Shown: piece after piece, positions 5,609-57,161 of the stretch
Layout: each line of letters begins with the position of its first letter
Numbering within the stretch: position 1 is the stretch's first letter
Source of the DNA: Phlyctochytrium arcticum
Lineage: Eukaryota; Chytridiomycota; Chytridiomycetes; Chytridiales; Chytridiaceae
Assembly: GCA_025602905.1 (NCBI GenBank)
Contig: JAHLKI010000049.1
Location: 46,266 to 110,265, forward strand
Length of the DNA: 64,000 nucleotides
Reading direction: 5' to 3'
Translations under genes and position numbers: made by a program
Notes under the pieces: generated by a model
What the model saw: only the letters and a program-made list of their open reading frames with translations
Databases searched by the model: none
Told to the model about the DNA's origin: nothing

Positions 5609-7157
5609 CTAACTTTTCTCTGGCTGCGAGAGCTTCTTTTGCCAATACGATTTTAATCTGGACAGAGAGGTTATGATGGTCACTACAACATCCATACAAT
5701 CATTTTCCGAGTTTCTAGTCACACGGTCACTCGTCCAACCTCTGCCGCTTCCTTGGCATGCTTCTTCAGCATGACTAGAAGAATACACAAATTTCTCCAA
5801 AGCGGCAATAGCTGTTTGGCAGTCGGTGTTGGGGTGTCTGTGGTTTTCAGGCTGCTCCTTTTCATGATGAACGTTGGTTTTGTCAAAAGCGTTGCATGCT
5901 GCGTCATTGGCTTCCTTCATCTTCTTGAAACCCACTGATATGAAACCTCGCTGGTGAATTCACGATGCAATCTCCGTGGGTCCAATATTTTTCCCAAGTT
6001 TGCGTCGCCTATCCGCAAGGTATTGATCGTGACATAGTGTGGCCAATTGCCGGAAAGAAATTGCGGCGCTGGTGGCTGCGAAAATTTGCTGGAGAAGGGT
6101 CAAGAACGCAGCGCACAATAGTTGAGAGGCAGTGCAAGACTATCACGACATGGTTTCTCTTTCTATATCGGATGAATAGTGGGAGCAGCCTCTTTAGGGC
6201 AAGCTTGTATTCGGCTATACTTCCACTGGCCAAAGCTGTTGCCGCGTCCAACACCAATGGCAGCTCCTCGTCAAATAGGCGGATGAGGGAGTCGATGATC
6301 ACGGCCTGCATGGGTGAGAAGGCATCTTTGTGCCGGGTATAATTGTCCATGACACGAACTTTGCATCGCTTCCATGCCATGAAGAGCATGGTCAGTAGCA
6401 TTACTCTTCTTACTGGCCGCAATTTGACGAGTTGGATGGCGAGGTGGGGGAAGGCCGAACCCCAAATGGGCATAAAGACGCCAAAATTCCATACAAGCAA
6501 AGCTGAACTGAATGCGATTAGCTAGCATATTCCCTCGATATAAATATGGCTTTGTACCTTGCTGCGCGTTCAGGGCTATGTGCGTGGCATCTGGCCATGG
6601 GAAGAGCAGCTGGCGAAGATAGGAGGTTATCGTGAATATTTTGACTTTGGGACCATAATGCCTTCAGGACGTTCCGCCAGACATAAAAGCCCCCTGCCAA
6701 CCATATAAAGCCGCCTTTATATGATTTGATGAATGTCGCAACATTTCTCTTGCCGAGGAAGGATGCCTGGGGATTTATGAGGCATCGCTCGCAGAACGTG
6801 CACAGAGAGATTGTTTCCCGGTAAAAAGTGGCGAAACCTGGATGGCTAGGTCCCGGAGTGAGGTATTGGAGTAGCCGTTGGTGAAGCTTGCGACGTTGCC
6901 TTGGTTGTCTGCGGTCCCCAGGGGCTTGTGGTCGGCGAAGGTGTCTCTGCCTCATCAAACCACATATCCGAAAGTTGCAATAAGCACACAAACTGCCCTC
7001 TCTGCATGAGCAAATGTTGGACAGCAAACATGGCGAGATTGCGTAGCCCGAGCATGCTGTTGAAGTTTCGCCAATGAGCGTATGCCCTTTCGGCTGGATG
7101 TCCGATGATTTGCTCTTCAACCCACTCCGGCGAAAATTGAATGTTGTGGTTTCTCAA
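5609..7157 (-). pseudogene. Diverged relative (E1) of the E2/E3 transposase, probably broken
   Basis: Minus-strand exons align by eye with the large transposases at 50.6-57 kb. Near 6690 it reads FIWLAGGFYVW (E3: FVLAGDFYVW). Near 6560-6580 it reads FPWPDATHIALNAQQ (E3: VPDIMHVALNAQE). At 6030-6500, after an intron ending near 6510, it has RRVMLLTMLFMAWKRC, then LFDEELPLVLDAATALASGS and RKRNHVVIVLHCL (E3: FEEYIPIAVDCPYLLASGD and KKNYVNIFLFQLG). A plausible 50-nt intron near 6849-6898 joins the N-terminal exon (from MRNHNIQFSPEW at 7157), which has no counterpart in E2/E3 and carries no MPPKRK start. The frames on either side of about 6620 do not join, so an indel probably breaks it. The last segment, 5609-5935, is charged and not clearly homologous. 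I found no terminal repeats. Confidence 0.55.
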
Positions 7158-21814: not shown

Positions 21815-22053
21815 TCTTTTTTGACTCAAAGAGTGGTGCCTTGTAGCGGAAGAAGGAATAGCTATCCTTCGGAAACTACTGGAAGAGTTTGGTAACCTTT
21901 AGTTACTAGTTTGGGGACGCCCGATCTGTTTTAGTGTGAAGAAGACTTTCATTCCGTTATTTAAATCCAAGATTGTTGTCGTCGGAAGTATCTCGAGAAT
22001 CGGCATTTCATTTCAAGATCACCGTTCCTAGCCTTTGTTTATCTTGCAACAAC

Positions 22054-23589
22054 ATGTATGTTATCCGTTCGCCCCTCCTCCGGGCCACTCCCACTCCTAG
22101 TAGTGCCCTTTTACCTCCGGGATTGGAAATTACACCAACCGCTCTGGGCGCTCCGGGAAGAGTTCAAGTACCGACCAACCAAGGAGAAGGCCTCAGTTTG
22201 AATGCTGATGAAGTCACGCAGGACTTGGACTTTGATTTTACTTTTGAGACCGTGAAAGATAAAAACGACGCAAACAGGATCATGGATTTCGAGGAAGAGG
22301 AGCTGGATCAGGAGCTTCAAAGGGCCCGAGAAGAATTGGCTCGCTTGACTCGCGTGCGGGAATTGAAGCAGGCCAAACGCCTCGAGTTAGTGGAGTTGCA
22401 GAAGAAGATCCAAGCGGAGAAGGATTTGGCGTCTGACGATCTAGGCGTTCCCGAACAGGGTCAGGGGAGAGGCGGTCCTCACCTTCAGTCCCAAGCTGCT
22501 TATCGTCAATCGTCCCCTGATATCCGCAACCCGTTCCAAACACCGGTGGCCGGGACCCGATTCTTTCGGTCGGACGGTCGTCAGAATACTCGCGGATCGG
22601 CCGTTGCCTCACTACCCATGCAGAACTCACTCGGCCCGCGAGAAGAAAGCAGTGGCCGGATGGAGATGGATTCGCAAGAGGAACTCAGGCGTGAGAAGCT
22701 ACGTAAGAAGCTACGACTCATCCGCGAAGGGGTTGCCCCAGAAGCTAGATTCAAAGGAAGGGTTGGGGAGACCGACAAGCGGACGCTCGCTGGGTTTGAA
22801 GCGGAAGTGCGCAGGGCGTTCGAAGAGCAGGAGCTTGAGCTATACAACGCTGATCCACGATTCCAGCAACTAGTTCTGTATACAATGCGGCATTTCCTCC
22901 ATCCGGATGGGAAAGCGTTTGACATGTATCAACAATGCATCCAAGGTTGGACTACCTACGACGATTTCATCCGGGATCTGTACCTTCGCTTCTTGCGGCC
23001 TAATTCTGATGCCCAAATGATTGCAGAATGGGAAGCGTCGGAGCAAGGCTCCAAGAGTTTTCTGGAATGGAAGGCCGAATTGGATAAGCTTTGGGAATCG
23101 TTGGGAATGCACATGGGTCGGCACATTTACCTCAACAAGCTAAAGGAGCGTGCCCATCCCGAGGTTATCAGCAAAATCGGGGCTCGTCTTCACCGCCTAG
23201 AGGAAGAGGATTTGGTCGATGAAATGGGTTTGGAAGACCAGTTTCGCGTGGCTCAAAGGAAAGGGAAAGGACATAACACCGGCGATTCTACACCCGCGAT
23301 GAACGGCAGGCTTCCCCGTGAGCAATATCAAAAATTGCGGGAGAAGCTTCGGGCGGAGTTGGCGAAGGAAATGCGGGCCGGTGCGGCAGCAAAGACACCC
23401 TCTTCGTCGGCTACAAATTCCGCGCCTTCACCTGTATTGGCGCCTCCGACACCTGCCCGAACCTACACCAAAGTAGAGACACCGGAGGAGTATGCTAAAC
23501 GTGTCTCGGGAATTACTTGCTATAAGTGTCAACGGAAAGGTCAGTTGCAAACAAATGTCCTGGTGGGGCCAGTGTCAATGCTACCATAG
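22054..23589 (+). pseudogene. Retrotransposon gag (capsid/nucleocapsid), frame broken in zinc knuckle
   Basis: Starts at MYVIRSPLLRATPT; an upstream in-frame Met at 21973 is less likely. It contains a coiled-coil region (EEELDQELQRAREELARLTR), a gag capsid-like region with FLHPDGKAFDMYQQ and FLEWKAELDKLWESLG, and a nucleocapsid knuckle beginning CYKCQRKG at about 23518. The frame is lost inside the knuckle: the expected His and final Cys are read in the next frame, where ANKCPGG appears at about 23552. A single-base deletion near 23540 explains this. A programmed frameshift is a less likely alternative. Confidence 0.85.
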
Positions 23590-24932
23590 TTCGATTTCCC
23601 TCGGCTGCCCCAGAGGAGGCAGTACCCGGTCCGAGCTCAAATCCTGCAGCCGCTCAGCAGGTAGATAATGAAGGGGACGCTCGCATTGCTGCACTGGGCG
23701 GCAAGGTGTCCCCGGCGTCTCGTTTTGGTCAGGGGGGTCGGAGTTATGCCGATGCTGTTACCGCCTGGCAGGACGGGAGGCGGAGGGTGAAGCCCGAGAA
23801 AGCTTCCCCGGTCAAGAAGAAGGAGAAGGACGAAAGCCATGCGCCCCCTTCTCCGCTGCTGGCGAGTGATTTCCCCATGTCGCCAAGCAGTTCAGGTGTC
23901 GCGGCTGCTGTCTCTGTCCCGATCACCAATCAAATGTCTGAAGAAACGATGCGGCAAAGGCAACCGCACGCTGACGACAAACCTGGGAACAATTTAGATT
24001 CAGTTTCACCTCAACAATCTGTGAAGGATTGGAAAGAGGTTGTGGGCGGGCCGACGTCCGTGGGAAAAGTTTATACTATCATTGCACAAGTTGGTGGTCA
24101 CAACGCGGTGTTACTGGTGGATCCCGCGGCCAACGTTCAGATGCTCGATAACCGTTTTGTCAAGATGCACCGATTTGGACGTATTGATCACAGTGAACGT
24201 CGCAAAATCGGGACTGGCTTTCGTGGCTCCTATGGGACATCGGCGGCCGGGACAGTGCAAACGGTGCAAGTGCTCGACGTGTCCCGTCGGGTGTATTTTG
24301 AGGTTGGAGCCGTGGACGGCTTTGACGGTATTTTGGGGACGGAATGGTTGGCCGCGGTCGGAGCGCAACAGTGTTGGAGCACCGATCGTTTGGTGATTGG
24401 CGGTACTATTGAGCACGGCGTGGAAGTTCCACACGCGCAGAAGCATAAGCTGGTACGGGCCATTACTGCCATTCAAGCAAATCATATCGAGGAATCCCCC
24501 CTAGACGCACCCCCCGCCTTCGATGTTATTCGAACCATCTTCATCTCGGACACGGGGCCTGCTATGTTTCCTGCATGGGCTGCGGCATTGGAAGCTCTGA
24601 AGGAACCAGGCTCGGATCTTACCATAGACATGGCCACTGATATTGTTCGGACCTTTGGTGAAGGGATTGGAGTGATTCGCCCCGACAATACTTTGCCTCC
24701 CGGGCTTCCTCCACTACGCGAAGGCATGAACCATACCTTCATTATGAAACGCGATGCGCCGCCACTACCGAAGCGAGCCATTCGTTACCCCTTACGCTAT
24801 GAGCAGCAGATGCGGGACAAGGAGGAAAAATACGAGCGGGATGGGCGATGGTATCGGTCATCGGACCCGGAAGCCAGTGCCAACATTTGTTGTTCCCAAA
24901 AAGGACCCTGTCTCTGGTCGCCTCGTCTTTGA
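23541..24932 (+). pseudogene. Retrotransposon protease region
   Basis: Continues from the knuckle in a shifted frame. A Pro/Ser-rich linker is followed by an aspartic-protease-like segment. The usual D-S/T-G-A catalytic tripeptide appears as LLVDPAANVQML at about 24113, and the C-terminal ILGTEWLAAVGA-like flap is present at about 24330. D-P-A in place of D-S/T-G would be expected to damage or alter the active site. The frame ends at 24932, just after the RT frame takes over. Confidence 0.8.
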
Positions 24933-25449
24933 TGAGCGTGCCCGTAACCGGCAAAAGGAATTGGTGCGATACACACTTCCAAATACTGATGGCATTCGCG
25001 ATGCGGTACAGGCGGCGGATTTTGCAAGTCAGTTCGATCAGATTAGTGCTTATGAGCAGTTCCGTGTGAATCCGGATTGCGAGAAGCATACTGCCTTCTT
25101 GACTCCGTCGGGCCAGTTCCGGTCTCGCGTTTTATCAATGGGAGATACCAATGGCGTGGCAAATTTCCAACGGGCTTCTGAGGTTACCGCTGGACCTAAG
25201 CTCGGTAAGAGCATTCGCCCATACTTGGACAACTTCGTCGTTACTACCAAGGGTACCTTGTTCGAGCATGCGTCGGAGTGTCTGTGGTTGCTGGCTCGGT
25301 TCCGAGAATGCGAATGGTACATCGGATCTTACGAGTTTTGTCCCCCCAAGATGGAGGCTCTGGGGAGTTTGATCGGTGGCTGGCGTTCGTCTTCCTGGAG
25401 TCAAGGTCATGAAGACAATTCTGGACATTCCCACGCCCACGTCCATTGA
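24884..25449 (+). pseudogene. Reverse transcriptase segment
   Basis: Reads KPVPTFVVPKKD, then YTLPNTDGIRDAV, then SQFDQISAYEQFRV (motif A with Asp), PSGQFRSRVLSMG (motif B area) and YLDNFVV at about 25228. The last corresponds to the YxDD box; its second Asp is Asn here. The frame leaves the homologous sequence near 25375 (LGSLI...), where RNase H resumes in another frame. Confidence 0.85.
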
Positions 25450-26008
25450 CCAAGTAGATCGCATGTTGGGTGCCTTTCAATTTGTGGCAGAGCATTCGCT
25501 GGATACGGTTGCGGAACGTTCGCTGTTGGCGGATATCGTGAAGCATCGCAAGACGAAAGGACGCAAGTCTACTGCCCGGCCTCCCCCCTTCAACATGAAC
25601 GGTCGGTTCATGTGGACCCCTACACACCAAGCGGCTTGGGATCGCATGAAGAATGAGATGTCTCGGTGCATGCAGCTCCGAGTCTTCGCGGTCGACGATC
25701 CTAACCTTCGTACTTACCTTATCACCGATGCTAGTCTCGTGGGAATTGCTGGCTACTTGGCCCAAGGTCCGGTATCTGGAACATGGAAGGATGCATGGCC
25801 TATCCGGTGCTGGTCGCGCGCATATGCCGCCGCCGAACGCAACTATACGACTACAGAGCAAGAGAAGTTGGCGGTAGTCGAGTCCCTGTCCCATTACGAA
25901 CATTTCTTACGGGGCGTGGCATTTACTGTCTGTACTGATCATGAGGCTCTGATCCCACAAGGCATGGGTATGTCTGCTCCCATTGCGAATCGCCGGGATG
26001 CCCGCTGA
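25376..26008 (+). pseudogene. RNase H segment of pol
   Basis: Starts in the RT thumb/connection (VKVMKTILDIPTPTSIDQV) and continues into gypsy RNase H: TYLITDASLVGIAGYLAQ, TTTEQEKLAVVESL and VCTDHEAL carry the expected Asp, Glu and Asp-His. It ends near 26005 at another frame change. Confidence 0.85.
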
Positions 26009-26010
26009 GT

Positions 26011-27894
26011 TTGTATTTGACGTCTTTTGCACCCACATGGCAGCATATCGCGGGAACGGACAATGTGCTAGCTGACACACTCTCTCGGCTTTGGGATGGA
26101 CATCGTGTGATAGACGCCAGCACTCAGCCTACGATCGATAATGACGATGGCGATGAGGGCTCGGCTTGGCGTTGGAATGCCTTCAATGGCGCCGGAACTT
26201 CGGAATCCTTCTCCGCGTTCCCTGAAGCGCGAGTAATGGCTTGCTCTGGGGAGAGCGCGTCGTCTGAAGCTACCCTGCGGCAGCGCCTGACAATGGCCTT
26301 TGGTGACGGGTTTGATACGGCTCTGGTGACCTGTTTGCGAGAAGATTCCCGTTGGGGCCCAGTTTGGGCCGAGCCTACCCTACACCCCGGGTTCTCAGTT
26401 CACGACGACTTTCTTTTTCTCGACGAGACTCGCCTGGTGGTTCCCTCGTCCATGAAGTGGTCGGACACTCGTCTCCAGACGCTGCTCATTGAAATTGCCC
26501 ATTTGGAGCTGGCTCACGTTGGAGCTGAGCGCACCTACACTCATTTACGCAATGGATTTTACTGGAAAGGCATGTTTGGCGACGTCACTGAGTTTGTTCG
26601 CGAATGTGACCGCTGTCAACGGGCCAAGTCTCGCTATGTTCCCGAGCCAGGTCTGGCCATGGCCATGCCTATCGTTGGCCATCTTGGGGAGCACATTGCC
26701 ATGGACTTCGTTGGTCCTCTTCCCACAATCCGTGACTACGACATGGTCTGGCATATCCAAGATCGACCAAGCGGTAAATCCCTCTTGGTTCCCTGGAAGT
26801 CGACCGGTACAGCCCGCGATCTGGCTGACCTCTTTATGGAACGGGTCTATTCCCGATGGGGATTGCCATTGGATATTTTAAGTGACAGGGATACGAAGTT
26901 CACTTCCAAATTTTGGGAGGCTGTGATGGCCGCATTTCCTGTAGCACTTCGTCGTACCACCGCTTTCCGACCTAACGTTGATGGCCAGGTCGAGCGTCGA
27001 CACCGTGATCTCAATGAAAGTTTACGGGCGATGATCGACGGGAGCCATGAGCGCTGGCTCTCCGCCTTGCCCCTCCTCGAGTTTCGCGCTAGTGCTGCCG
27101 TTTCGCGCACGACCGGTCACAGCCCTTTCACTCTCACGATCGGGTTTATTCCCTCCATGCTCAAGCCTTTGCTCGGTACGCCTTCTGGACCTCAAGACGC
27201 CGATGAGTGGCTTTTGAACCTCGAGACGCTACGCATGGATGCGGCGGATTCAACTCGTACAGCAAAAGTTGATCAGGTCCTCAGTGCGAACACGGGCAAA
27301 GGGGAGCAAATTTCCTATCAGCCGGGCGATCGCGTTCTTCTGAGCACCAAAAACCTCAAGTTGAAGTATCAAACGGTGGCCAAGCTCAAAGACAAGTGGA
27401 CTGGCCCTTTCTACGTCAAGGAACACTCTGGTCGAACAGTTTATCTGGAACTCCCCGCTCATTGGCGTATTTTCCCGAAGTTCGACGTTTCCTTGCTCAA
27501 GCCATACCACGGTCCTCCTGATCGCTTCCCTGGCGACTTTCCCATGCTCGATGACGAAGGCCAAGAAACGTGGCAGGTTGAAAAGATTCTCGATCACCGT
27601 TGGAACCGTCGACAGAAACGAACTGAGTACCGGGTTCGTTGGGAAGGATTCTCGGCTGCTGCCGACACTTGGGAGCCCATCACCCATTTTCATCCAAACT
27701 CGCGTGAACTCGCCGAGTACCAGCAACTGCTCCCGGAGTCGGCCGCCCCTGCCGCTCCTGTTTCTGCGTTGCCCCCTGTCAGTGTTTTGCCGTCTCCGTC
27801 CCTGCCCGACGCGCCTCCTGTGGTCAGCGCTTCTTCGGTTGAGCCCCCCGTGCGAGTGCTGCGCACTCGACGTGTGCCTCTGGGGAGGATGTAG
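26011..27894 (+). CDS. Integrase with C-terminal chromodomain
   Basis: 627 codons, open to the 3' LTR. The RNase H tail (TDNVLADTLSRLWDG) is followed by an HHCC zinc finger (HLELAHVGAERTYTH ... CDRCQRAKSR), then the DDE core: Asp in MDFVGPL (about residue 231), Asp in ILSDRDTKF (about 290) and Glu in DGQVERRHRD (about 327), spacing close to DD35E. Next come a GPF/Y-type region (DKWTGPFYVKEHSGRTVYLEL) and a chromodomain (WQVEKILDHRW, YRVRWEGF, DTWEP). Chromodomains target chromoviruses to heterochromatin. The tail is Pro/Ala/Val-rich. The start is not a real initiation site, because this is the end of a polyprotein. Confidence 0.92.
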   Translation: MYLTSFAPTWQHIAGTDNVLADTLSRLWDGHRVIDASTQPTIDNDDGDEGSAWRWNAFNGAGTSESFSAFPEARVMACSGESASSEATLRQRLTMAFGDGFDTALVTCLREDSRWGPVWAEPTLHPGFSVHDDFLFLDETRLVVPSSMKWSDTRLQTLLIEIAHLELAHVGAERTYTHLRNGFYWKGMFGDVTEFVRECDRCQRAKSRYVPEPGLAMAMPIVGHLGEHIAMDFVGPLPTIRDYDMVWHIQDRPSGKSLLVPWKSTGTARDLADLFMERVYSRWGLPLDILSDRDTKFTSKFWEAVMAAFPVALRRTTAFRPNVDGQVERRHRDLNESLRAMIDGSHERWLSALPLLEFRASAAVSRTTGHSPFTLTIGFIPSMLKPLLGTPSGPQDADEWLLNLETLRMDAADSTRTAKVDQVLSANTGKGEQISYQPGDRVLLSTKNLKLKYQTVAKLKDKWTGPFYVKEHSGRTVYLELPAHWRIFPKFDVSLLKPYHGPPDRFPGDFPMLDDEGQETWQVEKILDHRWNRRQKRTEYRVRWEGFSAAADTWEPITHFHPNSRELAEYQQLLPESAAPAAPVSALPPVSVLPSPSLPDAPPVVSASSVEPPVRVLRTRRVPLGRM

Positions 27895-45499: not shown

Positions 45500-46653
45500 A
45501 CCTTCAAGCAAGATTTAGAATGACACAATTTCTGGTTGCTCTTAATATCGAAGACGACTCTTACAATTCCTCCAGTAACTTTGTCTCTGCCATAATTTCC
45601 GACCCTGATGAAGAGTAGTTGAAGTAATCTTCAGCATTTTCCGCTGGTGAAAGTATGTGAGCTCGCAAATGATGGAAAACATGTACGTTGACCATACCTG
45701 CTTCAAGGAAACTCCCTGTCAGATCTCTCAACCCCGCAGTAGGATTGGGGGTAGGATTTGGGGGTGACCGTGTACGACTGCATTGTTGAACTTATTCTTC
45801 GCAAATCCTTCTTGAAATACTCCTGCAAATCTGACTGATGATCATTAGAGACCAATAGGCAGTTTCTCACTGCCAGGTACTCGAAGGGGTGGTTTTTGTC
45901 CTTATGCCGTGCAAGTAGTTCCGGTCGTTCTGCAATTTGTCGCTGGACGCGCAACATGAGCCGGTGAATATTTATGTGATCAATTTCTATTCCAAGATCT
46001 TTAGCAGCTTTCAATTCAGCAATGCTCGCATCTATCCACTGGGCATCACTGGGCATAGATAAAATGTCCCCGGAAGTCTCTGAGCCGTCTTCTGATTCGG
46101 ATTGTTCCGCATTCATATCCAAATGAATACGATGCTTGAATGGCGTTGTATTCGGAACAGGTGCTTGCCGGCGCTTGGCAGGTGGGGTTGACGGCTCTGC
46201 ATCCGAATTCGGTCGTTTGCCAGGTACAGCGTGCTGCAGCTACGATGTTAATAATAAAGTAACTTTGAGTTGTACAAAATGAGTATTTGCCTGTTGTGAT
46301 AGTTGTCGTTGTTCATCGTCTAGAGCGTGTCCGACTTGCGTCACGGCAATATTTACAGCCGTTGCTGCATTCAGGGCTCTGCGGGCTTCGGCTTCAACCT
46401 GCCGATCCAATGCGGCCATTAGGTCTGCAACGCCGGAGCCACCGGCTGCTGCGTCCCATTTCTTCAGGATTGATGCAGCTTTCCGTTTGATTTGAGGTTG
46501 CACCAACGGTGAGGTCTCCAGACGCACTAGGCTCGTCTTGAGACGGGCCAACTCCTCGTCAACGGGTCCTGAGTCGCGCGCAATGAAGTACGTCAGTGCT
46601 CCTCTGACTGACCAATCTTTTGGTGGAGTAACAGTTAGGTAAGGATGATCCAT
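45500..46653 (-). CDS. Unrecognised multi-exon gene next to the transposon nest
   Basis: Exon 46653 to about 46290 starts MDHPYLTVTPPKDWSVRGAL and is helical and Ala/Arg-rich (IKRKAASILKKWDAAAGG). After an intron of about 60 nt comes a Pro/Lys linker with KRRQAPVP, an acidic stretch (SESEDGSETSGD), and SIAELKAAKDLGIEIDHINI, then SDLQEYFKKDLRRISS. Further exons near 45550-45700 read AENAEDYFNYSSSGSEIMAE. No family recognised. The E2 transposon begins 200 bp upstream (46855), so the promoter or a 5' exon may be displaced. Confidence 0.45.
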
Positions 46654-46846: not shown

Positions 46847-46854
46847 GCTTAGCC
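46847..46854. other. 8-bp target-site duplication of E2, left
   Basis: GCTTAGCC immediately outside the E2 left end; identical to 53741-53748. Confidence 0.85.
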
Positions 46855-46869
46855 CTCAGCGCAACCCCA

Positions 46870-46878
46870 GAAATTTGG
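46870..46878. other. 9-bp target-site duplication of the MULE, left
   Basis: GAAATTTGG, identical to 50232-50240, directly outside the 87-bp TIR. Confidence 0.92.
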
Positions 46879-46965
46879 GGCGGCTGCCAAATCTCCACCA
46901 CCAAAATCCTATTTCTTCACCCCCTGACTCATACCTGCCTCTCACAAAGTGTTTGCACAGCCACT
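46879..46965. repeat. MULE left terminal inverted repeat
   Basis: 87 bp; two mismatches against the reverse complement of 50145-50231. Confidence 0.95.
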
Positions 46966-47219
46966 CGTCCTCACCTCTTTTGTGACAGCTTTTGTGAACC
47001 TGCTTGTGAACAGCTTCTGAAGCAGCTTGTGAACAACTTGTGAGGAAGCTCATAGAGACAGGACCCTTGTGGGAACTTTTGATGAGGTCGACAGACGATC
47101 TCATGTAATAGCGGAAGACATGTATATTGGAAAGATAAAACGGACTTTATGTGATAGCAAACAACAAATTTATAAGATAGGCAAGATCTTGGAAGAAGAG
47201 TGAAAATTTGAACCGATAA

Positions 47220-50035
47220 TTACTTTCTCAATGGGCATTTCCAATAAGTGTGGGAGGCCGAACCGCAGCCACTACATTTCCTTACGGCTCGGACTATGGG
47301 TAGTGGAACTAGGGGCAGTGATGTCTCCGGTGAACTACCGGGGGTTGCAGTCTCCAAAGCCGCGGCTGGGCTGGCCATGTCCGTGTCGGAGAGGAAATCA
47401 TCCGAGTACACTTGGGGTTCTAAAAAGGCAATAGGGCACTGCGAACGGTCATGCCCGCGCTCGTGACACACCCCACATTGCTGCTGACTCGCAAGCAATT
47501 GGCTTTCAGCAATTTCTGCCGTTGTCTTCGTGCGTTTGTTCCCACGCTTATGCGTGTTTTTCACAAAGCGACCAAGAGCCGGCTCGCGCACCTCCGAACC
47601 TGCGGCAACCGGCGGCAGATGCCATCTTTCAATGAAGTCACTCATTTTCAGTCCACGATCCTGCTTCTGCATCTCCAATATTTCATGCGAACACGGCACA
47701 CCCATGACAGTTCTATGCCATGAGGTACAGGGTTTCAGAACCAATGACCCTTCACTTAAAATAGTGTTAGGATCGTTTGCTTTGACAATTCTGTCAGCCT
47801 TGATCCGCTCTTTATCCACCATGTGAAGGATATGTAAAGGGAGTCGCTTGTTGACATCCGCATAGAAAGGCTTAATCATGACAGTTGGTTTCGCTCGCTT
47901 CTTGCTCTTTTTCTTTTGGTTGGGATCGTCTTGAAGGAGAAAGCGATGTTGAATAAGGGCATCAGAGGTCGCTTCGGTTCGGTAATTGGCCATCTGTGCG
48001 GCGCATTTGTCTCTGATGGTTGTATAGAGGGTGTAGATGGTGGCATTAGCAGAACCATCATCTTTGATGGCATTCCAGTGCGCTCCTTCCACACGAGAAG
48101 TCACAGTGGTATTCAAGTGCTGATGCTTGTCGATATAAATGCTGGACCAGTGTTGACGGAGCGGGAGCTTATTTTTTTCCAAATAGGCAATTGTTGCCTT
48201 ATCCACGTCTCTCTCCATCTGTTCCCAAAGTTCCTTGAACTCTTCTTCGGTGGTAGCATTTTCCAGTTCCTCCCAGGCCTATAACAAAAGATTAGAACTA
48301 TCCCTAGGTACCGGTGTGAGAATTACAAAGCGCAGTAAAACTCACTCTTTGAAGATGGCAAATGCTTCTGCATCATGCTTTTTGTCAGCGTCAACAAAGT
48401 TCTTTTGGCAATTCTTTTTAATGTTTTGCCATAAATGCCATCCGCAAAGTATGATTTTTGTGTTGGGCCACCGACTCTTCACAGCTCCAACAAACGCAGT
48501 ATCGCAATCGATGACAACGACGGCTGGGGCTTTCGGGAGTGATGCTGTTATCCTGTCAATTGCAAGCTGGTAGTCTTCGGTGGTTTCGCCTGCCATTAGC
48601 ATGAACGCGCCCGAAAACGTGTGGTACGTGTTCGTTATTCCCGCGACGTGGAGAAGAGTGCCGATTAGTCCGGTATGTGCAATCCATAATAAGCACATCA
48701 CCAAACTTTGTCAAAAGCTCAGCCATGTATTGCTGTAGACGAGGAGTGTTGCAACAAGCACAAATGAAGCTGCTGGCATGACAAACTCACATCCGTTTGA
48801 AAAAACAAGCGCGTGAGAACATTTTCCTCATTTTGAATCACATCAGTTACAACCCCTTGGTCAACCATTTCCGCAAGATGATCTAGGAGGGCTGCGAGGG
48901 GAGAGCGACCTTGCAGTATATCGTCCATTCTTTTCGCCTTCCGATTGCCGATTTCTTTAACAACAATCATGGGAGACGACGTATGGTCCTTGATGGTCGC
49001 CATGATTTTACGCGGCTTAGTTCCTGCTTTGATCATGGTATCGATGTCGTGGGCAACAGAGCTGTTCTGAGTAAAGCGTCGCGCTTGAAACATAGATCGC
49101 AAACCCTCCCTCGTCAATTGCGGATGACCGGTGTGAGTGCCCGCGCCAGAGCCGTTGCCGAAAATGATCGTCCACTCTCCCACAAGGCCGTCCTTGACTG
49201 CACCCTTCAGAATTGCCATATACGTGCAACCTGACTTTTTGCTTCCCTTGTTGCGCAGTGGAACGCCTTCGTCTTTTGGTCTATACTCCCCATAGCATGC
49301 GCAGGGGCGCCACAATTTGTGCACTGGGGTGTTAGGCCCACCAACGCGCTTTTCTCTCAAGTTTGAAATGGCAAATCCGTTGTCCATAGCAAACTGCTTC
49401 AAAGCAAAATCGGCTTCCTCAGATGTAGCGAATGGGCCCGAGGGCGGAGGTGGGGGAGTCCATGCTGCGCAAAAGATGTCTTATCATCGTATGAACCATT
49501 TCGTCTTCAATATTATCATACCATCGGAGGTTGGGGAATCTTGAAGTTCATCCATGACTACCTGATTGCCCAACTGACCGTTGTGTGCCGCGGCATCGCT
49601 GGAATTGCCATGTAAGCCGACCTCGGTAATGCCGATACTGGTATCTGCGCCTGCAATGAGGTACATTAGACTAAAATAAAGTGATAGGGAAAAAATACAT
49701 ACCTTCGAATTGATGCACACACTCAGAATTGTTTTGGATTTCACTGGTCGGGCTCAATCCAGTAACAGTTTCTGCTGAACATAAACAATTGATTTATGAG
49801 ATTTCTGTAAGGATATATGAACTACTGAACGATATTTCAAGCTACCATCAGAGAGATCTGGACTGCCATGATCCACAGGTTGTACTACTCGCAAGGCCTT
49901 CTGCATCATAGTCGGCGTTACCTGCGTCAATGCCATCAATTCCGCGAACTTCTGGGCCATCATTCTGTTATTTTCCTCCATGAGCGCTTGCATGGCCTTG
50001 AGGACATTTTCGGATGGAGGGTTGCTGCTGGACAT
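47220..50035 (-). pseudogene. MULE transposase with FAR1-like N-terminus and zinc knuckles, probably frameshifted
   Basis: Starts at MSSSNPPSENVLKAMQALME (50035). A FAR1-like DNA-binding region follows in the exon around 49000-49450 (TSEEADFALKQFAMDNGFAI, WRPCACYGEY, KSGCTYMAILKG). The MULE domain has the first catalytic Asp in FGDVLIMDCTYRTNR (about 48695), the second in AVVVIDCDTAF, the C-x2-H segment IILCGWHLWQNIKKNC, and the Glu in TTVTSRVEGAHWNA. The C-terminus has CGVCHERGHDRSQCP and CSGCGSASHTYWKCP knuckles. Right after TYRTNR the frame shifts: LLHVAGITNTYHTFSGAF lies in another frame, and only 4 nt separate the Arg and Leu codons where the family usually has about four residues. A small deletion near 48667 is the likely cause. 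Confidence 0.85.
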
Positions 50036-50144
50036 TTTTTATATTGGGCTACTAAAGAGTGTCGTTACTGTGAGGGGAGTGTTTGTGGGCAAGGAAGGGC
50101 AAAAATGGATCTGGGGCAACAATTGTCGGACTTTTGTCCGGGCA

Positions 50145-50231
50145 AGTGGCTGTGCAAACACTTTGTGAGAGGCAGGTATGAGTCAGGGGGTGGAGAAATA
50201 GGATTTGGGTGGTGGAGATTTGGCAGCCGCC
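50145..50231. repeat. MULE right terminal inverted repeat
   Basis: 87 bp, ends GGAGATTTGGCAGCCGCC, followed by the duplication GAAATTTGG. Confidence 0.95.
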
Positions 50232-50581
50232 GAAATTTGGCGCCAAAATTTACGTAAGCCGCGTCGGAGGTTGGGAATTAACGCGAGACCATCCAATGCC
50301 CAACTTGAAAAAGCAAACTACAAGCGCAGATCTATGTTAATGGTAGTTGGTAAATACAGAGAATAATAGTAAATGAATGTGAATGTGTCCTGAAAAAATC
50401 TACGGTCTGAAAACTGCCTAATGATGAAGAGTCTAATAATAGGAACTTCTACGCTTAACATCGGCACTGATCTTGGGTGAGGTACAAAAATGCTTGCAGA
50501 AAATCCAATCCCTCAGCTACTTTTCTCTCCATCATACAGATCATTCTAATGATGGTATACAACGCGTGAGTACTTACCTCG

Positions 50582-53491
50582 TCAAGTGGCCATGCATAAA
50601 CACATAATGGAGGGTGACTCCCCAAACTTACCTTCAGTTTCGCGTGCTGGCACTTGATCAATGTTGAGCCAGAAAAATGTCATGGATTGATGGGCTATGC
50701 AGGAGTACATGGCTTGGCATTTGCAGGCATTCTCGCCGCAGCCACAGGAGGTGAGTTGTAGCCCGCGGGTGGTCTCCTCGGTGAGGAAGTCTCGCACTTT
50801 CTTCGCCTTTGCAGGTTTTCCTTGCACGTTCGTGATGTCGGCGAGGGGGGCGCTACGTTTGGGAGGAGGAAGGACTTGGTACTGCGAGATGTCTATCTCG
50901 TTCCCAAGTTTTGCGAATGTCTGCCGGCGAAGTTGTAATGGAATTAGCGTTTCGCGGACGATGGCCAAGACAACCGGCTGTGGTTTCTTCGGTACCGAAA
51001 GCCCCTTGGCACCCTTCGCAGGGCTAGCCAATGGTGTCGGAAGCGAGTTGGATGGTGAAGGGGATGGAGACAGCGGAGGGGTTGGGTTGGATGTGAGGGT
51101 GTAGTGGGCAAGGGTAGATGATGAGTAGGCTAGTTTTCCATTCTTACCGACAACATCGAACGAGAATTCAAAGAGGGTGGAGAACCAGGCCCGCAAATGT
51201 CTTACCATTCCGGGCACGACCTTCTCCATTGCGCTTTCAAGAGGACTGAGGGTAGTTGACACCCCTCCTTCAATTGTGAAAGAAACGGCCTGCTCTTGGA
51301 ATTCTTTCTCACGTTCGGTCATGGCGGCAAGTTGGGCGATGGCACTGTCATCCTTCATCGCCGTAATCAACAGCGCCTTGCGCGACACTTGCTCATCCGA
51401 GTCTTGAAATCGAATGGCCGGACGCAGTACAGACTGAAAAACCTCCATGACCTCACTTGAGCAAACTGAAAAAATAGCGGCTGCTTTTTCTGGCGACATT
51501 TTTGTAAGCAATTTTTCAAGGAAGCCCGACATGAATAAAACAATGTTCACGTAGTTCTTCTTTTCCAACCGCACGAAAAGATGGTAGAGGCGCTGAAGAC
51601 AATTCTTTATTGAGTCGATATCACCACTTGCCAAAAGATACGGCGCGTCCACAGCCAGAGGAATTGCTTCCTCGAAGACCCAGATTAATGAACTAATCAT
51701 GGCTTTTCGGATCGCTGTGGCGTGCCCATTGGTCGCTGCGGCCGACTCAAAGTTTGAAATGATCTCCTTGCGGCACTCCTGCCAAGCAACCATGGCGAGA
51801 GCCAACATGGCGGTCCGCCTTTTGGGGCGCATCTTAATGGGTGTGGTTGTTTCAATCTCTGGGTACCCTGCGACCCAGAGAGGATGGATAATGCCCCAGG
51901 CGTGAATGAGGATAGCCCCTTGCGCATTCAGTGAGATGTGCATTACGTCAGGGACGGTGAGCACATGGGGCTTGAGCGAGCTGAATTTTGGTGCGTTGAA
52001 AAGCTTGCTGGCGTACATCCAGATGTAAAAGTCACCGGCCAGAACGAGGGAATATGTAAAAACGCCATCTTTTTCAGGATAACCCACCTGTGCGAAGAAA
52101 GCCTATCAATCGCTGAAGACGCATTTTCTTTGAGGATACGGTACCTTAGCCAAGAAGATTGCCACATTCTCCAAAATCGGTATTAAGTCCGCTGCGCTTT
52201 TCAAGGGATTCGCGTCACTGCCAATGAGATGGAAGTCCTTTTGAGATGCAGCCTTGGTCGAGATACTGTACGCGTACATTTTTTTGGAAAGGACGGCACC
52301 TTGCCTAAGTTCAGCATAGGATACCGTTGGGCAGACAATGATATTCGTGACCCAATCAAGATCTTTCAAAACCGCGGTGGTGGCATCTGCGAACGCTGCA
52401 GAAAGCGGGCGTATGGAGGGATGGAGTTTAACCCCATAATTGGCCGCCGTATGAGCCGTTGTGAATTTTCCTGGGGCGTTTGCGGTGGCAGGCAATGCCC
52501 TAATGTGACACCAGTGGAAATCATCTATGGTGACGACTAGGAGAGGACGGGTGGTGATAATTTTTTTGATCAGCTTTTCTCGGCTATCAGCGATCAGGTT
52601 GTTTGCGCGTTCTATTGACTTCGACGGGTGATAGCAGATACCCATTCGAGAGAACAGCCGCTGCGTAGTGTAGGAAATGTTATGCAGCTGCTGACCAAGA
52701 TAGCGTTTGATGTAGTTGTTCTTCCTGTCCAAGATCCAAGCATCATAACAGATAGAGAAGATTATGCCTCTCTTCTTGCGGTCATTGTGTGTTGCCGAAT
52801 GAGAGTTTGAAATGGAGAAAACTGATGCTTTCAACTCGTACAAGCGAGGGTTTTGGGAGATGAACTCATCCATTTGGACAAACGGATTCTCTTTGAAAGG
52901 TACGGCGCTAAACTCCAAGAGCGCAAGGCGGTAGTCAGCCAGCGTTGGTGATTCAAGAGAAGTTTCGGGGTTTGCTTGTGTAGGAATTGACACAGACATG
53001 GCCGAAATGTCCTCTGGCGTATCGTAGTCTGCTAGAATTACGACAGTCTCTCTCTCTTCCTCTTCTTCAATTGCTAGATCTGGATCATCTGCCTGCGGAT
53101 TTCCGAGAGACTGAATACCAAAAAAGCCGGCTTCTCTCCATCGCAAACGTGTTACATTACAAATGTACGCAGAAGTAGAACCAGCGCCAAACTGAAAGTT
53201 AAGTCCAAGAAGTTGCAGACGCTCAACCTCAGACCAAGATAGACGTTGAAATCGGGCAGACGTTTTACATCCACAGCTGGCACAACCAGGTTTATAGTAC
53301 CATTTCAAACCCTTTCTTCCAGGAACTGTATGGTACCACTGACCACTGCAATCCGTGGCCGGTAGCTATAGGAGGTGTAAGTACGAATAACTGAAGAGTA
53401 TGTGAAGAGGATGGGCCGGGGTTCAAGACGTGGGGAAGGACGATCTTCGAGATTAACCACAAGCGCAATCTACCTTTCTTTTCGGCGGCAT
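50582..53491 (-). CDS. E2 transposase-like protein, about 914 residues
   Basis: Exons 53491-53474 (MPPKRK), 53365-52145 and 52087-50582. An N-terminal Cys pair GCASCGC precedes WSEVERLQLLGLNFQFG; a second pair is decayed here (CNVT where E3 has CNNC). Core motifs shared with E3: FVQMDEFISQNPRLYELKAS, ICYDAWILD, VVTIDDFHWCHIRALPA, NAPGKFT, SKKMYAYSI, FHLIGSD, FYIWMYASKLF, VPDVMHISLNAQGA, RPKRRTAMLALAMVAWQECR, VFEEAIPLAVDAPYLLASGD, LEKKNYVNIVLFMSGFLEKL, and the C-terminal CGCGENACKC. Candidate acidic triad: Asp of IDDFHW, Asp of PDVMH, Glu of FEE. No stop or frameshift seen, so possibly intact. Its second intron (57 nt, 52088-52144) is absent in E3. Confidence 0.8.
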
Positions 53492-53740
53492 GCCGACACT
53501 AACGCGTTAAAATATCTAAAGTTTGGTTATTTAAGTGGGTAAAAAAAGCTGCCAATGTCTTTGAAGGTACCAGAACGTCTTCTTTGTGGGCTAAAAGTAC
53601 AGGTTACTATGTGTAGGTTGTGCACAAGATGGAGAAGATGGGTGAAGGTAAACAATGAAAAACCGGTGAATCTTGCGAACTTGGATTACGTGAGCAGCAA
53701 TGACTGTGCCACCCTATAGTGAGGTTGGGGCTGCGCTGAG

Positions 53741-53748
53741 GCTTAGCC
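53741..53748. other. 8-bp target-site duplication of E2, right
   Basis: GCTTAGCC, identical to 46847-46854. Confidence 0.85.
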
Positions 53749-53774
53749 AACCCGCAGCGGCCCGCCAGCGCAAC

Positions 53775-53794
53775 CTCAGCGCAACCCGGTTTTT
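53775..53794. repeat. E3 left terminal inverted repeat (20 bp)
   Basis: CTCAGCGCAACCCGGTTTTT; the first 13 bases are shared with the E2 left end. Confidence 0.88.
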
Positions 53795-54082
53795 TGGCGC
53801 CAAAAATTTACATAAGCAATGTCCGACCGCTGGGGGAATTCCTGGAGAATGAAGAGGTACCTGAAAAGGGCCTCAAAACTTATATGAAATATATCTTATG
53901 GGTAGCTGAAGTCGAAGAAAGTGTACTAAAGAAATTTGAGAGAGCGTGGCAACTACCTAAGCCTATGTAGAAATTGAAGTTTGATGCAAAACAAGAAGCG
54001 TCTAAATTCATTGACCGCATTCGGACAGGTACATATAGGGTCCCGTAATCAAGCTAGCAAGTTGAGCCTGCGTCGGGTGATT

Positions 54083-56887
54083 TTAGATGGGGTGTAAAAA
54101 ACGGTGAGAGGTTGATCTCCCACCGGCGAGAGACACAGCTCGGAAGACATCGTTGTCTGGCTTACCTTCACTATCACGCGGAACATCTTTGTCAATGTTT
54201 TTCAGGAAATGCTCTAGTGACGTAGTCCCAATGGACTGATACATTGCTGAACATTGGCAGGCTAAAGCGAAGCAACCGCAACGCGCGAGATCGTACTCGA
54301 GGGAGGTCGTGGAGAGGAAGTCTCCGACAGGTTTTTTGGTCGTTTTGGAACTGGGGGATGGCAGATTGGTGATATCACCCAATGGGTTCTTCGCAATCGG
54401 CAATGGGACCGTTTGAAAGCTTTCTACATCAACGTGATTACCAAGGTTGACAAAAGTCTGTTGGCGCAGCTGTAATGGCACGAGTGACTCCCGAATCGTG
54501 GCCAGAATAACCTCAGGAGATTCTTCCGCAGATGTAACCGGTTGAGATGAAGGCAGCGGCCTCTGAATGAGCTTGTAGTGTGGTACATCAGACGTGTAAG
54601 GGGTCTTGCCGTGCTGCCCAACGACGTCAAAAGAGAAAGTGAACAATGAAGTGAACAAGCTCTTCAGAAATACAACCATTCTCGGGACAACATCCTTGCT
54701 CGCTTTCTCCAAAGGAGATGGAGCGGAAGGACGTGTCTCTTTCTTGATCGGAGAGGCAGCTTGTTCACGAATCGCCTTCTCCCTCGCGGTCATAGCAGCA
54801 AGCTGCTTTACTGCGGACTCGCCGCTCATGGCAGTGATTAACATGGCTTTCCTAGATACTTGATCGTTGGTATCCTGGTAGCGGATTGCGGCCCGGAGGA
54901 TGGAGTGAAATACTTCCAAGTCTTCACTTGAGAACTTGGAAAACAGAAAAGCCATGGGAATATCATTCGGAAGGAGAGAAGGTAATTTTTCTAAAAGACC
55001 GAGCTGGAAGAGAAAAATATTGACATAGTTTTTCTTTCCCAGAAGAGCAAACAGAGGGAACAAACGCGTCAGACACAGCTTGATTTGAAGAAGATCCCCA
55101 CTGGCCAGGAGGTACGGACAATCAACTGCAATGGGAATGTACTCCTCGAACACGGCAATGAGGGTGTCGACCATTGCCTTACGGACTGTCGTTGCCTCCG
55201 GATTGCTGGCTGCGGACTTCTTGTAAGCAGCCAACAACTCCTGCCGGCACTCTTGCCAGGCAGTCATTGCTAGTGCCAACATGGCCGTCCTTCGCTTTGG
55301 TCGCATGTTGATGGGAGTGGTATTTTCCACATCCGGGTACCCCGCGAGCCAAAGGGAATGAATGATGGTCCATGCATGCACGAGGACCGCCTCCTGTGCA
55401 TTCAAGGCCACATGCATGATATCGGGGACGGGAAGAACATGAGCCTCGAGATGTTTATATCTGGGTGATCGTAGCAATTTGCTAGCGTACATCCAGACAT
55501 AGAAATCGCCAGCCAGTACGAAGGAATTATGGAAAATTCCCTCTTTGTCCGGGTAGTCAATCTCGGTGAGGAATGCTGCAATGTTGTCCATGACGGGCTG
55601 CAGATCAAGAGCACATTTCATGGGATTGTCATCACTGCCAATGACATAAAAGTCCTCTTGAGATCCAGCCTTGGTGGCAATACTATACGCATACATCTTC
55701 TTAGATTGCACTTCGCCATTGCGAACTTCTGCGTATGTTTGCGTTTCTGGACTAGCAAAGACGGAGGAGATCCATGACGTGTCCTGTAGGACATCCTTCA
55801 GTACTTGGCTTATTCCAGAAGGGAGAGGCGGCAGATCCCTGTGGAGCTTGACCGCGTAATTTGCGGTGGTACGAGCGCTAGTAAATTTCCCGGGTGCATT
55901 TGATGTGTCCGGTACAGCGCGAACCTGACACCAATGAAAATCGTCAATGGTGACAGCCAACAATGGATCATTCTCCAAGATGTCTTCGCCAATACTCTGG
56001 CGTGCTGTTTTTATGAGATTGTTGATGCGACCGATGTTTTTCGAAGGATGAAAGCCACAGTTCATCCTCGATAAAAACCGCTGATCAGAGTAGGATGAGG
56101 TGATGAAGCGGCGGCCGATGAATCTTTTCACATAGTCGCAGCTTTGATCCAGGACGGATCCATCGTAGCAAATGGAGACGATGACGTGTCTCATCTTCCG
56201 ATCGTTGTAGACGGCGGAGTGCTGGTCAGAGTGAGCGAGCATAAGAGATTTGATCTCATAGGCTCGTGGATACTGCTCCACGAATTCATCCATTTCGATG
56301 AATGGATTGCCCGGAAACGGTCGCGAGATCAAATCTCGCAATGCATCTTGGTATTCCGAGGCTGAAGTTGAGTTCAAACCGTTCAGGGTGACCACAGATC
56401 CATCGGTTTGGCTCTCTGCTTCTTGAAAGTGTGCAGCAAGGACGACCTTGCTGTTCTTAGAACCGCCATCATCGATTTCGGTTGTGGATTCATCGGCATC
56501 GTCATGGAGGGGGACAAGTGGGCCCCGTTCGATTCCTGCTTCCGACCAGCGTGTGCGGCAATTGTTACAAACCCACGGGTGGACGAGTCCCGGACCAAAA
56601 TGCAGCGTCAAACCGTTTGACTGAAGAGTGCCGACCTCTGCCCAATGAAACTTGTGGAAGCGATTGGATCTCAGCGTCCCACAACCAATACATCCAGGCT
56701 TATATTCCCACTTCCCACCACTCTTCCCAGGCTTCTGTGTGTACCACTGACGGCCATCATCAGGCTGGCGCTATAATAATCGCAAAGAGAAGAAGTAAAA
56801 GAATCAGTGTACTGACTTTCACACACCGGTGAAGCGTTTTTTCTGAGATCATGACGATGCCCAATTCACCTTTCTCTTTGGAGGCAT
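54083..56887 (-). CDS. E3 transposase-like protein, about 901 residues
   Basis: Microexon 56887-56870 (MPPKRK) is joined across a 99-nt intron to 56770-54083. The N-terminal region has two Cys pairs, CIGC and CNNC, about 50 residues apart with HFGPGLVHPWV between, likely a zinc-binding DNA-binding unit. Core motifs: FIEMDEFVEQYPRAYEIKSL, ICYDGSVLD, AVTIDDFHWCQVRAVPD (about residue 281), NAPGKFTSARTTANYAVKLH, SKKMYAYSIATKAGSQEDFY, VPDIMHVALNAQEA (about 454), RPKRRTAMLALAMTAWQECR, VFEEYIPIAVDCPYLLASGD (about 546), LGKKNYVNIFLFQLGLLEKL and C-terminal CGCFALACQC (about 836). It is roughly half identical to E2 by eye. I read it as a DDE-type transposase because of the acidic motifs, TIRs and target duplication; the named family is unknown to me. 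Intact frame. Confidence 0.82.
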
Positions 56888-57133
56888 GCCACCACTTGCA
56901 CGTCAGAATTCTAAGCTGTTGTCAGAAAAGTCCCGGGTAAAATCGCAAAGAGTGCTTCCCATACCGGCTGAGGAGAGTTTGAACGGCCTAACAGAAGTGT
57001 CTATTCGAAATTGTCGCGTCAAAATGGACAGATGGTGGACGAATGTTCGTGCAAAACGTACAGTAAAACGGCTCGGTCGGATCGGATTACCTAATACTAA
57101 GATGACTGTCCCACTTTTTAGGCACAGTCAGTC

Positions 57134-57153
57134 AAAAACCGGGTTGCGCTGAG
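57134..57153. repeat. E3 right terminal inverted repeat (20 bp)
   Basis: AAAAACCGGGTTGCGCTGAG, exact inverse of 53775-53794. Confidence 0.88.
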
Positions 57154-57161
57154 AGCGCGAC

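Follow-up and report, generated by a model that had tools for sequence, protein, structure and literature searches.

Transposons of the hAT superfamily carry a C-terminal hAT dimerisation domain or a BED finger, P elements carry THAP or P-element transposase domains, and DUF6589 (PF20231) is a Pfam family of unknown function. According to the paper on Dada transposons, P and hAT elements produce target-site duplications of about 8 bp; a DxxH or CxxH motif follows the second catalytic Asp in hAT, Kolobok, P, MuDR, IS256 and Dada; and Dada elements make 6-7 bp duplications at specific small RNA genes (those for small nuclear RNA and transfer RNA (tRNA)) where their ends could be defined. For the Kyakuja-Dileera-Zisupton (KDZ) group, a 2025 paper on TET-bearing fungal transposons lists duplications of 8 bp in Dileera and of 7 bp, without terminal inverted repeats (TIRs), in Kyakuja; the same text places a C(2)C and an H(3-4)H between the second Asp and the Glu of CMCT transposases (CACTA, Plavaka and Transib), with duplications of 2-5 bp. 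Two neighbouring elements, termed E2 and E3, were found in a 64,000-nucleotide stretch of the chytrid Phlyctochytrium arcticum (contig JAHLKI010000049.1, forward-strand positions 46,266 to 110,265; ‘the window’, whose own numbering is used below), and are compared here with these systems. Both are very likely DDE cut-and-paste transposons, and there is good reason for confidence in the fuller description of them as elements with an RNase H-fold DDE transposase, of a P/hAT-like lineage for which no described family was found and which is perhaps related to DUF6589.

Structure and ends of the two elements

E2 and E3 are bounded by TIRs and flanked by 8-bp duplications, as follows.

46847..46854, no strand: E2 target duplication, left copy GCTTAGCC (8/8)
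46855..53740, transposase gene on the minus strand: element E2, 6886 bp with its nested MULE-like element counted and about 3.5 kb otherwise
46855..46869, plus strand: E2 left TIR
46879..50231, no strand: MULE-like element nested in the left end of E2, 3353 bp
53726..53740, minus strand: E2 right TIR, 14/15 identical to the left TIR
53741..53748, no strand: E2 target duplication, right copy GCTTAGCC (8/8)
53767..53774, no strand: E3 target duplication, left copy AGCGCAAC
53775..57153, transposase gene on the minus strand: element E3, 3379 bp, with TIRs and duplication
53775..53794, plus strand: E3 left TIR, 20 bp
57134..57153, minus strand: E3 right TIR, 20 bp
57154..57161, no strand: E3 target duplication, right copy AGCGCGAC (7/8 against the left copy)

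The 20 bases of the E3 TIRs are identical between both ends. Their first 13, CTCAGCGCAACCC, occur in the window at 46855 (plus strand), 53775 (plus strand) and 57141-57153 (minus strand), and with up to two mismatches at 5 places, against 1.25 expected; the right end of E2, CTCAGCGCAGCCC, differs from this 13-mer by one mismatch. Only 34 bp (53741-53774) separate the two elements. Since the target site of E3, AGCGCAAC, resembles the element end CAGCGCAAC, E3 may have landed next to a sequence that looks like an element end.

The nested element has TIRs of about 87 bp (2 mismatches), a 9-bp duplication, GAAATTTGG, at 46870-46878 and 50232-50240, and two open reading frames (ORFs), at 47220-48218 (with Cys/His patterns that are SWIM-like) and at 48719-49402, neither of which matched a Pfam family above cut-off. 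From the TIR length, the 9-bp duplication and the SWIM-like pattern, it is presumably a Mutator-like element (MULE). Without it and one copy of its duplication E2 measures 3524 bp, against 3529 bp for its relative L049; since the MULE-like element sits inside E2, E2 is the older of the two insertions.

Copies of the elements across the genome

The genome of P. arcticum (Chytridiales; 31.5 Mb in 91 contigs) was searched with the E3 protein, giving 89 matched pieces that were grouped by hand into about 53 places, of which 44 (E2 and E3 included) were examined and 9 were left out. Paired ends, picked by lowest mismatch with the flanks ignored, were found in 35 of the 44, the other 9 having no end pair. 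An exact 8-bp direct repeat flanks 24 of these 35 copies, and in none of the 24 does it extend to 9; two more match at 7/8 and nine at less, and flanks swapped between copies as a control gave 0 exact 8-bp repeats in 1190. The end sequence CTCAGCGCAACCC itself occurs exactly at 108 places in the genome, against 2 for its reversed control. The initial annotation of the window, made from its letters, had proposed two little-described DNA transposons of 3.4 kb with shared TIRs and 8-bp duplications, which might recur elsewhere with the same ends; ends and duplications agree with that description and the genome-wide copies bear it out, save that the length holds for E3 and for E2 does not (6886 bp, or 3524 bp without its insertion).

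Copies of one group (group A) differ pairwise by at most 1.7% (11 of 16 compared), and such near-identical copies sit in different flanks, which argues that the family has moved recently. When eight copies were compared with E3, third codon positions differed at 55-67% and second positions at 17-23% in seven, the eighth being too close to E3 for the comparison; because third positions differ far more than second ones, selection has maintained the protein. The close homologues of the E2 and E3 proteins are themselves P. arcticum proteins annotated as hypothetical, and the listed relatives carry no Pfam label.

Some copies depart from the common pattern. L029 and L031 have perfect ends between unlike flanks (1/8 and 2/8) and are perhaps recombinant or deletion products, while L045 and L046 have flanks identical to each other and a 6-bp repeat (TCAGGC) in place of 8 bp, and probably represent one insertion duplicated along with its surroundings. 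Short non-autonomous copies did not stand out among 100 of the 108 end places: these form 32 pairs of ends that face each other less than 10 kb apart, with spans of 2248-6297 bp. As to empty sites, the sequence to the left of E2 turned up in a single copy, and when joined insertion sites were compared with the loci retrieved, the one match across a junction was a trivial self-match.

The predicted transposase

Each element has one open gene model on the minus strand. Its exons in both elements, and the motifs of the E3 protein (numbered within the 895-residue exon), are listed here.

56870..56887, minus strand: E3 predicted transposase exon 1 (MPPKRK)
54083..56770, minus strand: E3 predicted transposase exon 2, 895 residues
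56555..56692, minus strand: E3 N-terminal CxxC ... CxxC, probable zinc site
55943..55945, minus strand: proposed first catalytic Asp, D276
55505..55507, minus strand: proposed second catalytic Asp, D422
55412..55423, minus strand: E3 DxxH motif, D450-H453
54914..54925, minus strand: proposed catalytic Glu, E616 or E619, where the last RNase H helix begins
54251..54280, minus strand: E3 C-terminal CxCx4CxC, probable zinc site
53474..53491, minus strand: E2 predicted transposase exon 1 (MPPKRK)
52145..53365, minus strand: E2 predicted transposase exon 2
50582..52087, minus strand: E2 predicted transposase exon 3

The predicted proteins have 901 residues (E3, two exons) and 914 residues (E2, three exons), with no internal stop and with GT...AG introns. 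Several early observations on the two proteins, namely a length of about 900 residues, a six-residue microexon MPPKRK, conserved acidic motifs and a C-terminal CxCx4CxC, are all recovered in these models, the acidic residues (D, D, E and DxxH) being conserved in the alignment; the Cys-rich N-terminus that had also been ascribed to both is complete in E3 and lacks part of its second pair in E2. A start of MPPKKK or MPPKRK recurs in the NCBI models of three relatives (P0002, P0005 and P0006), the models of the others being shorter or starting differently. The N-terminal CxxC/CxxC is kept in most members that reach the region, and is incomplete in the E2 type and in P0024; exon 2 of E2 and its relatives P0005 and P0006 read CNVT in place of the second CxxC, so that one zinc ligand seems to have been lost in the E2 subgroup from a gene that is otherwise open. 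The C-terminal site takes the form CxCx4CxC or CxCx7CxH across members.

A first structure model, built from 12 sequences, had a pLDDT (predicted local distance difference test) of 52.7 and gave chance fold matches only; it was replaced by one of a trimmed core with 19 sequences. This predicted core has an RNase H fold, as the initial annotation had surmised, in which two Asp and a Glu take the positions customary for a DDE triad; these motifs are conserved in the alignment. The predicted transposase thus starts with a probable N-terminal zinc site, continues with a DDE core (D276, D422 and E616/E619) that has DxxH after its second Asp and a long helical stretch inserted ahead of the Glu, and ends with a probable zinc site near the C-terminus. 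Such a protein would bind the CTCAGCGCAACCC ends, probably through its N-terminal zinc site, excise the element and transfer the 3' ends of the element into target DNA at positions staggered by 8 nt, and repair of this stagger would leave the 8-bp duplication; the C-terminal zinc site may act in binding or in dimer formation.

A rival view is that the protein is a passenger and that the elements are moved by another transposase. The predicted transposase fold, the constraint on the protein and the constant pairing of protein type with end type in two clades (see below) make that view scarcely credible.

Relation to the P and hAT superfamilies

In comparison with the PDB, the closest solved folds to the predicted core are those of the P element and of Hermes (a hAT transposase). 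RAG1, Transib and ISCth4 match by fold as well, and the fold alone therefore does not decide the superfamily. Against a viral structure library nothing was found at E 0.001, the best match being a Pandoravirus hAT-type protein at E 0.083. Beyond its fold, the lineage presumably differs from P elements in its end sequences and in an extra C-terminal Cys cluster, shared by E2 and E3.

Pfam searches with the E2 and E3 proteins matched no family at E 10, so neither protein has a recognisable hAT dimerisation, BED, THAP or P-element domain. Of the 25 relatives returned by the searches, 21 were also scanned against Pfam (P0013-P0015 and P0017 were left out). NCBIfam gave no match for four members, two family profiles (A1 and A5) gave respectively none and one irrelevant match (E 1.1) among PDB sequences, and collections of genome contigs and viral contigs, searched with one peptide pattern each, gave no relative. 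That E2 and E3 are strongly diverged hAT or P elements would agree with their best structural matches and with the duplications of about 8 bp given for both superfamilies in the Dada paper; the missing domains, and the fold matches to RAG1, Transib and ISCth4, make it unlikely. By motif, fold and duplication length the elements do fit the assemblage with DxxH or CxxH to which hAT, Kolobok, P, MuDR, IS256 and Dada belong.

Comparison with KDZ, CMCT and Dada elements

The initial annotation had seen in the long transposase, the Cys motif and the 8-bp duplication a likeness to KDZ elements. All three features are present, and a divergent KDZ origin could draw on them, the duplication having the length stated for Dileera in the 2025 paper (although this length is not specific to KDZ). 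The likeness does not survive a search with the KDZ model (PF18758, HMMER), which matched no member tested, whether at E 10 (E2 and E3) or at E 1 to 10 (further members), and the closest folds are those of P and hAT, no KDZ structure having come up for comparison. With the 7-bp duplications and lack of TIRs given there for Kyakuja, a KDZ assignment is very improbable. A search of the genome with PF18758 also found nothing, but control genomes were equally silent, so that this search shows no absence. From CMCT transposases the lineage differs in having, as the alignment reads, no conserved CxxC between the second Asp and the Glu, and in its 8-bp duplications.

Dada presents another likeness, and E2 and E3 might be Dada members or their closest sister: the Dada paper describes an N-terminal CCCC site, then the DDE core and its DxxH, then a zinc site towards the C-terminus, and similar parts follow in that order here. 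The details diverge. The C-terminal site of Dada is CCHC, against CxCx4CxC or CxCx7CxH in this lineage, and the E2 protein is one N-terminal Cys short; the spacing between the first and second Asp is 146 residues here and 68 in Dada-U6_DR; and the duplication is exactly 8 bp, against 6-7 bp. Nor was the preference for small RNA genes seen: a tRNA scan of 26 joined insertion sites (run without a positive control) found none, a scan of 44 retrieved loci found a tRNA in one (L050, outside the element), and Rfam had no match in 20 loci with the elements still in place. Membership of Dada, or the position of its nearest sister, is accordingly quite unlikely.

A second clade and the DUF6589 family

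The one recurrent domain signal in the lineage is to DUF6589. Weak matches, none over the cut-off, were obtained for 2 of 12 members in one scan, for 6 of 8 in another and for a further copy, L051; they recur in overlapping profile positions (233-340), in the region between DxxH and Glu, and the strongest, at E 2.4e-5, scores 23.7 bits where the cut-off is 27 and covers about 70 of 410 profile positions. A weighted family consensus gave no sharper match (E 0.14). Run against the genome, the DUF6589 profile marked four places, none over the cut-off, and one of these was L051.

The spliced L051 protein is a near full-length homologue of the first-clade proteins (353 bits against their profile). 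One end of its element, CCCAGCGCACGGGTCCC after GTCTGGCG, was set by where copies cease matching; the other was predicted from the first and then found with the same 8 bp, defining an element of 4040 bp. The 13-base end of this second clade occurs at 32 places in the genome, against 1 for its control, and forms 13 facing end pairs, of which C39:37431 and 10 others were tested and two of more than 6 kb (in C26 and C36) were left out. Exact 8-bp duplications flank 9 of the 10 further copies, against 0 of 90 with swapped flanks. Both clades thus have in common the 8-bp duplication, an end motif CYCAGCGCA and a homologous protein, and each protein type stays with its own end type. A third protein type is represented by P0023 and P0024 (37-39% identity). 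E2 and E3 belong together as a subgroup within a larger P. arcticum lineage, which probably has the rank of a superfamily and may be a distant relative of DUF6589. A bolder formulation, in which these elements are the first members of an undescribed eukaryotic DDE superfamily (defined by 8-bp duplications, CYCAGCGCA ends and DxxH) and DUF6589 is its sister and itself a transposase domain, is offered tentatively, as somewhat less than an even prospect.

That weak hits to DUF6589 keep falling in overlapping parts of its profile also raises the question of whether the family already stands in Repbase, or in unpublished collections, under another name, for example as a DUF6589-type element. In the openly licensed literature (CC0, CC BY and CC BY-SA), no relevant description of DUF6589, PF20231 or IPR046496 was found, and the matches listed for chytrid transposons and for KDZ/Zisupton include no description of the E2/E3 family, a search that leaves Repbase aside and does not prove absence from print. 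The listed relatives, moreover, are annotated as hypothetical and have no Pfam label attached, and an existing name, while conceivable, is doubtful. In any case, a transposase lineage whose copies in one chytrid genome are numerous and nearly identical has escaped Pfam, its proteins being deposited as hypothetical. If the superfamily rank is true, the lineage would add a branch to the P/hAT/Dada group, provide many young insertions to study, and offer a concrete reason to examine whether DUF6589 is a transposase.

Related and neighbouring sequences

As a possible element end for P0024, the stretch C13:62350-62900 (L073, 1-551) was considered and rejected, since it belongs to another repeat. 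Its 14 further copies cover the full stretch and are 93-96% identical to it; in C13, 2.6 kb away, lies an inverted segment of 36 bp.

Two further features of the window lie at a distance from E2 and E3. The first is a decayed relic of the second clade:

6440..6742 (ORF 6518-7120), minus strand: decayed second-clade transposase relic (C49:52705-53007), 39% identical to the clade-2 query (E 1.2e-12)

The second, at 21973-27894, is a run of long adjoining plus-strand ORFs resembling a Ty3/gypsy-type retrotransposon, a label given from reading the ORFs.
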